From Notolepis coatsorum (lineage: Eukaryota > Chordata > Actinopteri > Aulopiformes > Paralepididae), in the NCBI GenBank assembly GCA_963971535.1, contig OZ020589.1, forward strand, positions 80,793,184-80,857,183: 64,000 nt of DNA, written 5' to 3'. Numbering within the stretch: the first letter of the stretch is position 1; each line of letters begins with the position of its first letter. The translations under genes were made by a program, and so were the position numbers. Under the pieces are notes generated by a model. The model worked only from the letters and a program-made list of their open reading frames with translations. It was not told the origin of the DNA and searched no databases. Below, piece after piece: positions 25,184 to 30,824 of the stretch.

Positions 25184-25323
25184 AGACCTTTCCCCGCTGT
25201 CAATCACACAGAGAATAATAACCAATAAGATTGCCCGATTTCTTAAGGCCGCGCCCCTTGAAATAGAGCCGCCATGATGTCTCACAGATAGCCAGCCAGT
25301 CCTGCATTGTTGTTGTCGAGAAA

Positions 25324-28300
25324 ATGGTTCTTAGATGTGCTTGGGGAACGTGCAATAATGACCAGAGATATCCAGAAAGACTAAAGGGAGCGCGTTTTAT
25401 AAATTTTCCAAAGCCTAAAACACAGTTGGAAAAATGTTTAAAGTGGATTAAGGCTTGTGGACGGCCCCATACACAGCTGAATGTGGACAAGATCAACAAG
25501 AACAAGGCTGTATGCTCAACGGTAAGCCCGAAAAATATGCTTCAGTAATATATGCTTCAACATTTGAGTTAAACAGAAGTCATCACTTGTTATCTTATAT
25601 ATACTGTATATAGATAGATAGATAGATAGATAGATAGATAGATAGATAGATAGATAGATAGATAGATAGATAGATAGATAGATAGATAGATAGATAGATA
25701 GATAGATAGATAGATAGATAGATAGATAGATAGATAGATAGATAGATAGATAGATAGATAGATAGATAGATAGATAGATAGATAGATAGATAGATAGATA
25801 GATAGATAGATGGCTAGCCGATCGTTAGGTAGCCAGCTATTCATAGCTAATGCTAACGCATGGTTAACCTAACGTTAACCTAACGTCGCCAAAAAGAGTC
25901 TCCGAAAACATTCCGATCAGTTCATGAGCTGAAGGAAAACTACATATAGCTACAGCTACTTAGTCAACACCCTTGAAAATTATGAATTGGAAGTTGTCCA
26001 GTTGATTCTAACAACCGAACTAACGTTAGCTAAATGTTAGTGTACTGTAAATGTCCAAACCCCCCCTCCTAATGTACAGTTTCCTCCCCCTCGTATGTAT
26101 ATATTTCCTGTTAGGATATCTTTTTAACAGTACTGTATATTTGCATATCTTGGATGTCACAAATGTAACAGTACTGTATCTGTATGTCATAAATGTCATG
26201 CTATATATCTGTTGTGTATGTCATAACACATAAATGTCAGTATGAATTGAAAATGGGGGACCCTGATGTAAACAAGACTAAAGTCTTTCTCTGGTCTGCA
26301 TCCCCTTAACTATTGTGTGTATTGAGCTGTACTGTATTGTACCCATTCTGCAATCTGTTAATACAGTTTTCAATCAGCTAGCATGAGTAACCTGAATGCC
26401 TTACAATATCTGTGATCCACTTTCTCTTCTCTGTCATGCCTATCTCACCTTATAGCATTTTGTTGGCGGGGATGGACCTACTGTGCAATATCCAGACCCT
26501 ATAAAAGCTGATGGGACCACATGTAAGTCGGTGCGTCCGTTGCCAAAGAAAAGACACCTGCTTGATCCTGACAACCCCCCATCTAAAAAAGAACTACTGC
26601 AGGAAAATACTAACTTGTAAGTCCTGAAGACTGGGTATTGTCAAAGTCCTTATAGGCGGTATTGTCTGAATATTGTGATGTGTTAGTGAAGATGTGAATC
26701 ACTAACTAAAAACACCATTTGCATGTGTGAATCAGATGTCATTTAATAATTTGTTATAAATGCTCATATCTAGTATTAATTTGTGAACCAAAGATACTGC
26801 AAGTTCTTGTTACAATCAAACAATACATACATAATACTGAGACCAAATGTTATGATTAATGAACAACATGGATTTATTAATTAAAGTGCATTTATTTGAT
26901 TATGATTTTGATACTTCACAGGAACATCAATCCCTCTCTGGATGTCATCAACCACCAATCGGAGCTCAGTTATACAGCTACACAGACGTGCACAGCTACT
27001 CAGACTGAAGGAGAATGTAAGGGTCTACCTTTCTTTTAGGAACTGAGAAGCATGATCTTTAAAAAATGCAGCAAGTCTGTGCAGTAATCTTTCCATAAAT
27101 GGTATGTCTGGGAATATTCTTTCCACAAAGATATCTTTCTGCGTAAAAACTATGAATTCACAGAATTGGCAGCCTGTCACCATAAGTTGTCCTTGTATTT
27201 GCACATAATAGTCGTGCGTCTTCTTCAATGAAATACTGCCCCCCTCATCTTTGTGTAAACAGAAATCTGGGAAGTTGTCGCAAGCCTCCAATATCAAACA
27301 GTTTCTTGCCTTATAAGGACATTTCACTTCGACTATCCCACTCTCGCCATTGTCGCACAACTTCCCGTCAGGTGTGGCTCCTAAAAAATTGAACTCTGAA
27401 TTGACAACAAGACCACACTCATGAAAATGTCTGGCGGGATAAACCTCCAGATATTTGGCCTTCGCCTTTGCCTCATTCCTTTTCCCATACTCCAAAGCCG
27501 GGGCACAAATGGATGTCAACCGGAAAACACTCTCCAGAAATGTTGTTGTTGGGGCAGATTTTCTGTTTACCGCTTTCGCAAAGTTTGAAGCAGTCAGTCG
27601 TGACCTCCGCTCTTCAAACCAGTCATTTGAGAGAGCCTGGGCCCGAGTGCGTTCTTCCAGTGCTACCAGGTTTGTGTCTGCAGTATTCAGATCTTTGTAG
27701 ATCGCTGGAAGCTTCACTGGAGATGGCTGGTGCACAGATACATTTCCACACCTCTGGTGTGGAACCGGGTCTGTTTTCTTCTTGAGATTTCTTGTCTGTA
27801 GAATAAAAGCAAAATGTTATTATTGTGATGTCATGTATATGTGGAAACTCCCTAACAATAATTGTAATATTTCTGTTTCCAGGGGTTTGCCCTTTAGAAG
27901 TATTGGGCACTGCTGTGGAAGGTGCAAGATTGAAGTCAGAGCTGGAGAAGAAGGAGAGGACGATAACCTGGTTGAGAGGGCAGCTTCTTGAAAAGGAACA
28001 GATAATACAGTCTCTCGAACAGGATGCTCAGAAAAAGACATTCTGTACTGTACAAAGTGTTGTCCAAAAAGAAACAAAGATCAAAGGGCTTTTTAAGTAC
28101 TACACTGGGATCACATATGTTAGATTCATGTTATTGTTAGATTTTCTTGTGCCTGCTGGCTGTGATGCACCTTATGCAAAGGGCCGTAAAGACATGAGGT
28201 CACTAGGAAAATCCAATGGCCTATTCTTGACATTGTGTAGGTTAAGACACAACTTTGGACTTCAAGATTTGTCTCAAAGATTTGGAGTATCCATGCAGTC

Positions 28301-28976: not shown

Positions 28977-30706
28977 AATTGTAGACCTGCATTACCTGAT
29001 AAGAAAGTACAGAACCAATCTGGACTTCTCCAAAAGGGGTTGTGATCTTTGGCACACTGGTAGACAGGATAGTTGCCAAAGGTGTTCCAGTCATCCGTTG
29101 TAGATGGGCAATATCTTCCTCTGTTACAGCTGGAAGTCTGTAAATATTTAAAATATTGTATTAAATGTATTGCATATATTAATAATAACTTGGTCATACT
29201 TTTGCTATATTTCTGAGATGGAAGAATGATGTTTTGGTCACTTTGTTAATATGAAAATTGAAGTTCAGTTCTGAATCTATGATAACCCAGAGACTTGTGA
29301 TCTCAGATTTGATCCAAGGGGTTAGTCCTCCCAGGTTCTTTATTAACGTTTATTTTTTTGTTTTGGGGCCGATAATTAGAATTATAGATAGAAAACCTAC
29401 ATTATGTCCTCTGATGATATCACCCAGCAGTAACATGTAAAGGACCTAAGCAACTCCCTTGTGCAACTCCATAGTTGTTGTCATATATCTCAGACATGTG
29501 GCCTCCTAGTTTAACATAGAATTTCCTCCCTCTGATATATGTTTTAACCCTTCTGCCTTATTAGGTAACTGACAGAGTTGGCACATCAGTGCATGAAAAG
29601 ATTGCATCACGTTCAAGGTCATAAAAAACTTAATTTGTAATATTTCGTTCCAATTCTTTTTTTTATGAATACCACTATAAGGATGGAGACCTTATTCTCA
29701 TCAGAGTTTAGTCTGAGGTCACTGATTATTTTGGTGAGGGCAGTTTCAGTGCTATGCTATTTTCTGAATCCTGAATTCTTCTAAGATTGTGTTCTCTTCA
29801 TTGACATTGATGTCTCATGAGCTAATTTTATATGTACATCAACTTATAAAGAGTATTACTAATAAAATTCATTTTTGATATTGTAACTCATGGACTTTGT
29901 TCACTTTATTATATCTGTTGGGTGTATTACTACCACTTTACCTGTAAGAAGTGTCAACATGGCACACCACTGGCCGTCTCTTTCTCTTCTCAGAGGGTTT
30001 TGCAACCACGACATGGTTAATAGGTACTGGCTGTATTTTATCACCTCTGGGGACATGCCATTGCTGTGGTATGCTGGTGCAACTTTGTTGTTCTGGTATG
30101 TGGGTAAAGTTGTGCCATTTGAATCCTTGAAGAGACTTGACAATGCCAACGACATGGGAACAGTGTCCATTTATCCTGAAAATACACATGCAACAATCAA
30201 ATGGTTGATAGCTACTCCACACATCAATATACAGCTGCGCCAACACTAAAGGTAAGCTAGCTAATTACAGTAGTTCAAATTCAAAGGTTTATTTGTCACC
30301 TACATACCGTGACATTTGTGTGATTAGCATAACGTTAGATGATTAGCCCATTGTAGCTAGCAGTTAGCAGATACTAGGCTTAAATCTTCATTCACTCTAA
30401 CAATTTTATAATAAGGGACCACTAACATACTCACCCTGCTTTACATGTGCAGTAGGACTCCACAATTGTATCCTGACAAATTACAATGTGGAGTTTGTGA
30501 GGCGTTTGTGTCTTCCGCATAGTCCGCCAACACTTGGCATCAACTTTGACGTTGTCATCTCCTTCTCCGTCCGAAATCCTAATTTCATGGATATATCCTT
30601 GAGTAAAATAATTCAGGCCTTTCTGGAGAACTCTCTTCGATAGAGTAGCGGCATTGGGCAAATAACTGATAGCAATAGTTTCAGGAATCTTTAAGAGAGA
30701 ATCCAT
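27025..30706 (-). CDS. ISL2EU SWIM-YqaJ nuclease protein (4 exons, 472 aa)
   Basis: Second gene of the transposon. Proposed exons on the minus strand: 30706-30435, 30175-29942, 29137-28996 and 27795-27025, with GT-AG introns and matching phases (1419 nt, stop TAG at 27025-27027). A SWIM zinc finger is built across the first junction: YCTCKAGINGHCSHVV, C-x-C-x7-C-x-H, about residues 85-100. The last exon is a YqaJ/lambda-exonuclease-like domain: RRSRLTASNFAKAVNRK, ALEYGKRNEAKAKAKYLEVY, FNFLGATPDGK (Asp), IVEVKCPYK (E-x-K) and YYVQIQGQLMVTG (conserved Gln). Its role in transposition is unknown; DNA-end processing is a guess. An upstream in-frame ATG (30811) lies next to the terminal repeat, so I chose the ATG at 30706. 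The exons interleave with those of the transposase. Confidence 0.87.
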
Positions 30707-30824
30707 GTTGTTCGATTGACATGTGGTTGTTTCAGTGTGCCTGTGAGAACATTTGGGAGAGCTTGGGAGACCATAGCAACAGTAACACGGGGGGGCGGGA
30801 CTTCCCGTCACCGCGGAAAGGTGT

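Follow-up and report, generated by a model that had tools for sequence, protein, structure and literature searches.

Positions 25184–30824 of a 64,000-nucleotide stretch of the Notolepis coatsorum genome (assembly GCA_963971535.1, contig OZ020589.1, positions 80,793,184 to 80,857,183 of the forward strand; hereafter the window) contain a DNA transposon of 5641 bases that is a further member of the known ISL2EU kind. We read it, with a probability of about 0.88, as an autonomous-looking cut-and-paste transposon from a recently spread family, in which a transposase gene (T, plus strand) and a nuclease gene (Y, minus strand) are convergent and interlocked and the product of Y would act as an accessory factor. 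The structure of the element, its target site, its two open spliced genes and its dozens of near-identical copies are read directly from the sequence. A preliminary description of this DNA had proposed an apparently intact two-gene ISL2EU transposon, a reading that the present analysis supports; the interlocked order of the two genes is a point absent from it.

Structure and insertion site of the element

The element is delimited by terminal inverted repeats (TIRs) and by a target-site duplication (TSD) of the dinucleotide AT, at the following positions of the window:

25184..30824, plus strand: complete ISL2EU-type DNA transposon (supported by its ends, TSD, gene pair and numerous near-identical copies)
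25182..25183: AT target-site duplication, left copy (sequence; empty-site comparison)
30825..30826: AT target-site duplication, right copy (sequence; empty-site comparison)
25184..25200, plus strand: left terminal inverted repeat, an imperfect match to the right end (13 of 17 bases)
30808..30824, minus strand: right terminal inverted repeat (end-to-end comparison)

The borders and the AT duplication given in the preliminary description are borne out by this comparison. Its statement that the terminal repeats are preserved holds with a reservation: they are present at both ends and fall within the 6–259 bp range of the ISL2EU group, but they are short, weak and imperfect. The left end starts with AG and the right end with AC, in place of the GG start that is usual for ISL2EU as a tendency, not a strict rule.

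The left flank terminates in ...AAAGCAAT and the right flank opens with ATTGGTTTT...; removal of the element together with one AT joins them as ...AAAGCAATTGGTTTT... and restores a reading frame resembling the reverse transcriptase of a long interspersed nuclear element (LINE), the LINE nature of the host repeat being judged from this translation. The empty-site search suggested earlier found this LINE site without the element, as all 40 scored genome copies of the repeat (928 candidates) align with the whole 129-base joined site at 99%.

Gene models and protein domains

Both genes comprise four exons. T splices into an open frame of 515 amino acids across introns of 934, 305 and 866 bases, and Y into one of 472 amino acids across introns of 259, 804 and 1200 bases:

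25324..25521, plus strand: T exon 1, THAP domain to just beyond the third zinc cysteine (C64)
26456..26616, plus strand: T exon 2, whose first residue is the THAP zinc-binding histidine (H67)
26922..27016, plus strand: T exon 3 (splice model)
27883..28976, plus strand: T exon 4, helix-turn-helix (HTH) and DDE_Tnp_4 catalytic domain (D339, D423, E470) with stop; inside Y intron 3
30435..30706, minus strand: Y exon 1, first two cysteines of a SWIM-like finger
29942..30175, minus strand: Y exon 2, cysteine and histidine completing the SWIM-like finger
28996..29137, minus strand: Y exon 3 (splice model)
27025..27795, minus strand: Y exon 4, YqaJ nuclease domain (D359, E372, K374) with stop; inside T intron 3

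All six introns are of the GT-AG type, with consensus-like borders and matching phases, and the frames, introns, Asp-Asp-Glu triad and nuclease residues are found as the preliminary description had stated them. The frames were nevertheless considered as a possible artefact of picking among many GT-AG combinations, since near the frame ends at least 40 alternative combinations for T and 104 for Y likewise give open frames, and an open spliced frame alone is for this reason weak evidence. The models given here are preferred because of the quality of their splice sites, donors and acceptors alike being consensus-like, and because intron positions are conserved in family B, a related family represented by locus L029 and its flanks, in which T intron 1 occupies the same position as in the window and the first three exon ends of Y coincide with those of the window gene in phases 2, 2 and 0. 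Moreover, in either gene the first splice unites the parts of a zinc site: T exon 1 runs two residues beyond C64 and exon 2 starts with H67, and in Y the C-x-C of exon 1 is joined to the C-x-H of exon 2, residues that we take to bind zinc in both proteins. We therefore consider an artefact of this sort very unlikely. Nor do other copies carry different exon borders, the outcome against which the preliminary description had warned: T has GT-AG borders at all three introns in 16 of 20 copies, the other four being without measurable borders (2) or misaligned at the first exon (2), and Y has them in 18 of 20.

The product of T matches the Pfam families DDE_Tnp_4 (4.2e-40), HTH_Tnp_4 (1.4e-11), THAP (5.3e-08) and DDE_Tnp_1 (1.9e-07), the THAP, HTH and DDE composition of ISL2EU transposases, and D339, D423 and E470 are invariant in all four aligned sequences, which come from different families. 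Among solved structures T has no relative at E < 0.05, the best match (0.078) lying over the THAP region, and a search of viral contigs with the DDE region (28101–28973) returned two stretches that fit the pattern, neither of which encodes a relative. The product of Y matches YqaJ (3.1e-17) and Viral_alk_exo (1.3e-07), giving the second gene the YqaJ exonuclease domain known from ISL2EU; it also matches the solved exonuclease 3syy (whole-sequence E of 3e-06, best single stretch 0.0019) and the phage RecE-like family PHROG 434 (7.9e-17), and D359, E372 and K374 are invariant in five of five aligned sequences from different families. Y is thus predicted to be a YqaJ nuclease of the lambda-exonuclease/RecE type. 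From family alignments and familiar motifs, we take the three residues named in each protein to be catalytic.

SWIM zinc fingers have the motif C-x-C-x(n)-C-x-H. In Y, a C-x-C-x7-C-x-H motif spans exons 1 and 2 and recurs with equal spacing in family B and at locus L031; the Pfam SWIM profile gives no match at E ≤ 1 in the window protein, nor at E ≤ 10 in three related sequences. Of the domains that had been proposed for confirmation with hidden Markov models, THAP, DDE_Tnp_4 and YqaJ were matched, and the putative SWIM finger, unscored by Pfam, is a match by motif. A Myb/SANT profile finds nothing at E ≤ 1 in either window protein.

Several nuclease relatives in the genome carry additional sequence. 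The relative at L031 (2337–3866) has an extra C-terminal cysteine-rich finger that Pfam assigns to a PHD finger (1.6e-06), and that at L030 (3763–4506) has a similar one, judged by eye; Pfam shows no PHD finger in the window protein. At L032 (744–2294), a SWIM-like stretch continues in one open frame into reverse-transcriptase-like sequence, apparently, as judged by eye, where a LINE has inserted into the nuclease gene.

An interlocked pair of convergent genes

T and Y lie on opposite strands, converge, and are threaded through each other's introns. The last exon of Y (27025–27795) falls wholly within T intron 3 (27017–27882) and the last exon of T (27883–28976) wholly within Y intron 3 (27796–28995), and 8 and 19 bases separate them from the adjacent exons of the partner gene. 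Because the genes are interlocked and convergent, their pre-mRNAs are predicted to overlap by at least 1952 bases (27025–28976), each being spliced past the last exon of the other. Candidate polyadenylation signals would extend the overlap to further exons:

29160..29165, plus strand: candidate T poly(A) signal ATTAAA (motif only), past Y exon 3 viewed from T
26873..26896, minus strand: two candidate Y poly(A) signals AATAAA, starting at 26896 and 26878 (motif only), past T exon 3 viewed from Y

By these motifs, Y exon 3 is predicted to lie in the 3' untranslated region (UTR) of T, and T exon 3 in that of Y.

The same order recurs in family B, whose proteins are 30–34% identical to those of the window over three pieces of Y, 34% and 46% identical over two pieces of the last T exon, and 64–65% identical in the THAP finger. 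L029, a decayed copy whose T exon 1 is frameshifted, retains both halves of the interlocked order. L038, also of family B, is 95–99% alike to L029 over the longer matched pieces and supports one half of the order, its last T exon lying between Y exons 2–3 and the last Y exon; no protein match to T exons 1–3 was found there, and the family B termini were not found in the retrieved pieces. By its nearest poly(A) motif, the T 3' UTR of family B would not include Y exon 3. At L030 and L031, the two genes are convergent without interlocking. The layout is thus interlocked in two of the four lineages of this genome in which both genes were seen, a count that leaves out L032 and L001–L008, which have no T match in the stretches retrieved. 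The papers listed in our literature searches contained nothing pertinent to an antisense or interlocked layout, Repbase entries lying outside the comparison.

Copy number and recent spread

The preliminary description had regarded intact copies of such an element as rare objects in a vertebrate genome, a view that the copy searches contradict. With T exon 4 as query, 36 of 40 scored matches (178 candidates), the window included, are full length at 97–100% identity (rounded), one of them short by 2 bases; the remaining matches comprise one of full length at 93% and three partial ones. The search for copies of more than 95% identity that had been advised thus yields many. The left 140 bases give a similar picture, with 20 of the 40 scored matches (114 candidates), again including the window, at 100% over all 140 bases. 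Among 20 retrieved copies, T is open at 515 amino acids in 13 and at 514 in one more, Y is open at 472 in nine and at 464 in one more, and both full-length frames are uninterrupted in seven. L035, taken for a time as an older relative or outgroup at 93%, was dropped as such, being 98.8–100% alike over the matched pieces.

Over positions 25820–30824, the mean pairwise difference among 14 copies is 0.46% (0.16–0.70%), these being the members of a set of 21, window included, that remained once seven were dropped for an end not found or a length out of range. Of 119 variable sites, 92 are private to one copy, and individual copies differ from the majority letters at 4–21 of about 5000 sites. Given this low mean difference and the predominance of private changes, the family appears to have spread in a recent burst. 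With a neutral rate between 1e-9 and 8e-9 per site per year, this would place the burst roughly between a few hundred thousand and a few million years ago.

Target choice and probable separate insertions

Twenty-one copies were examined for their insertion sites. The AT duplication is present in all 14 with both ends placed; it is preceded by A in 13 of these and followed by T in all 14, the A/AT/T target of ISL2EU. The outer bases are C in 10 of the 14 and G in 11, giving a target core of CAATTG.

The window copy and L021 occupy identical positions, to the base, in two LINE copies. Their flanks, 94% and 92% alike, diverge more than the elements themselves, which are 99.24% identical, and separate insertion of the two is therefore most likely. 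The right flanks of L010 and L013 begin with the same bases and their left flanks look similar by eye, a hint that a second repeat may have served both as target; a BLAST comparison of the flanks at 1e-8 gave no link between the two loci, and the left end of L010 is damaged. At L028, the filled site consists of two 100% pieces that overlap by exactly the two TSD bases, and the corresponding empty site is spanned over all 520 bases by 8 of 40 scored matches at 75–91% (related repeats), with partial matches of up to 93%.

The copy at L018 sits, to judge its flanks by eye, in a BED-finger-like coding sequence, probably the gene of another transposon.

Repeats within the first T intron

Two repeats occupy T intron 1:

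25611..25811 (bounds approximate), plus strand: GATA microsatellite (sequence; copy comparison)
26062..26376, plus strand: 3' end of a LINE-like repeat (comparison; LINE nature judged by eye)

A GATA run was found in 15 of 21 copies, its greatest length ranging from 44 to 540 nucleotides; against a difference of about 0.5% elsewhere in the element, the array thus varies widely, and could act as a fine clock or as a label for individual copies. The second repeat is a widespread LINE-like sequence with a CAAT-type tail, with further window copies at 31948–32095 and 43750–44233, and is also found at 11 or more of the 14 other loci compared; at L022, the element has itself inserted into another copy of it. 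Since the repeat precedes exons in other families too, a role in making introns was suspected; the idea was dropped, as its tail resembles the widespread LINE-like 3' end and the acceptor here does not come from the repeat.

Proposed mechanism and alternative explanations

Family knowledge, together with the sites seen, suggests a cut-and-paste course in which T would use its THAP finger to bind the ends of the element and its DDE domain to cut, and would insert at CAATTG, duplicating AT. Y would be an accessory factor that most likely trims DNA ends at the donor break, or else helps T to reach DNA, and may take the place held by the Myb-like protein in PIF/Harbinger; the data fit a helper of the Myb-like type and an end-resecting nuclease alike.

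Several results weigh against an autonomous, recently mobile element. In 13 of the 20 copies one frame or both are not open, in part owing to limits of the retrieved pieces, some of which are too short: L017 and L020 are without their left part or misaligned at the GATA array, L027 is incomplete on the right, and long inserts or gaps are present in L015 and L023. The ratio of nonsynonymous to synonymous polymorphism (pN/pS) among copies is just mildly below 1 in both genes, at 0.48 over 450 codons of T (exon 1 excluded) and 0.64 over 473 codons of Y, and may be a weak sign of constraint. Four missense changes, two in T (exon 1 excluded) and two in Y, are private to the window copy in a comparison with 13 others. 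A search of the genome for spliced T retrocopies gave 41 matches (40 of 330 candidates scored), none of which spans a junction. Finally, no near-identical empty allele was found for L028, the one copy with unlike flanks that was so tested, and present-day polymorphism is therefore not demonstrated.

The interrupted frames make mobilisation in trans plausible, and with it an inactive passenger, that is, a window copy whose proteins no longer work or are silenced in a family moved by its other members. The private missense changes lend this some further weight; in the window copy, however, both frames are open and the splice sites intact, the residues read as catalytic are in place, and no private change hits one of them. 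On balance we think the passenger explanation less likely than not. Domestication of an ISL2EU element into a pair of host genes, no longer mobile, would account for the two open frames of the window copy, but it sits poorly with dozens of near-identical copies, with AT duplications in all 14 placed copies at nearly always different sites, and with preserved ends and changes mostly private to single copies; we regard it as very unlikely. The autonomous-looking ISL2EU transposon is accordingly retained as the preferred reading, and within it the interlocked layout calls for separate judgement. Overlapping transcripts could form a built-in throttle, through collision or double-stranded RNA, that balances transposase and nuclease, and the layout could hinder the loss of one gene and be kept by selection across families. 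We offer this tentatively and think it rather unlikely. We somewhat favour the view that the interlocking arose by chance, through compact packing, and has no regulatory effect: two of the four lineages are convergent without interlocking, and the nearest poly(A) motifs of family B leave Y exon 3 outside the T 3' UTR. Against packing alone stands the persistence of the layout in two families that are 30–46% identical over the main protein pieces. The layout offers a simple test case for antisense self-regulation in a transposon.

Comparison with known systems

The nuclease resembles the lambda-exonuclease/RecE enzymes (PDB 3syy; PHROG 434) in its PDG...E-x-K core and differs from them in being joined to an N-terminal zinc-finger region and encoded by a spliced eukaryotic gene; no annealing-protein partner is seen in the element. 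PIF/Harbinger transposons likewise have two genes and a related DDE transposase. There, the duplication is TWA and the second protein Myb-like (PMC4482050, PMC9179366), in contrast to the AT and YqaJ found here. Spy shares a related transposase and an AT-rich target; in the same sources it makes no TSD, inserts at AAATTT and mostly has one gene, none of which applies to the window element, and Repbase places Spy under ISL2EU (PMC12730594).

The closest correspondence is with the ISL2EU group of the PHIS superfamily as these sources portray it (PMC4482050, PMC9179366): an AT duplication within A/AT/T, a THAP, HTH and DDE transposase, a second gene of YqaJ type, an animal host, and TIR length. 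The window element departs from the group in its AG and AC ends, where GG is usual, and in its 5641 bases against a reported mean near 4840. No SWIM finger is mentioned in the main text of either paper, and no description of the ISL2EU gene layout was found in the portions available. In an earlier survey, five teleosts had ISL2EU while gar, coelacanth, elephant shark and amphioxus yielded none, although a previous study noted there had reported it in amphioxus, and entry into fish at the base of teleosts was proposed (PMC9179366). A Hox13 profile matches four genes on four contigs of the present genome (6 candidates scored), the number expected where the teleost genome duplication is lacking and suggestive of a non-teleost host; were the host indeed of that kind, the proposed entry would have to be widened or a separate one assumed. 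Transcription is described in zebrafish, cod and medaka, proof of activity was unreported to the knowledge of those authors (PMC9179366), and the function of the second gene was stated as unknown (PMC4482050). With dozens of copies about half a percent apart, several of them with both frames open, the present family is a natural place to ask whether ISL2EU transposition needs its nuclease.

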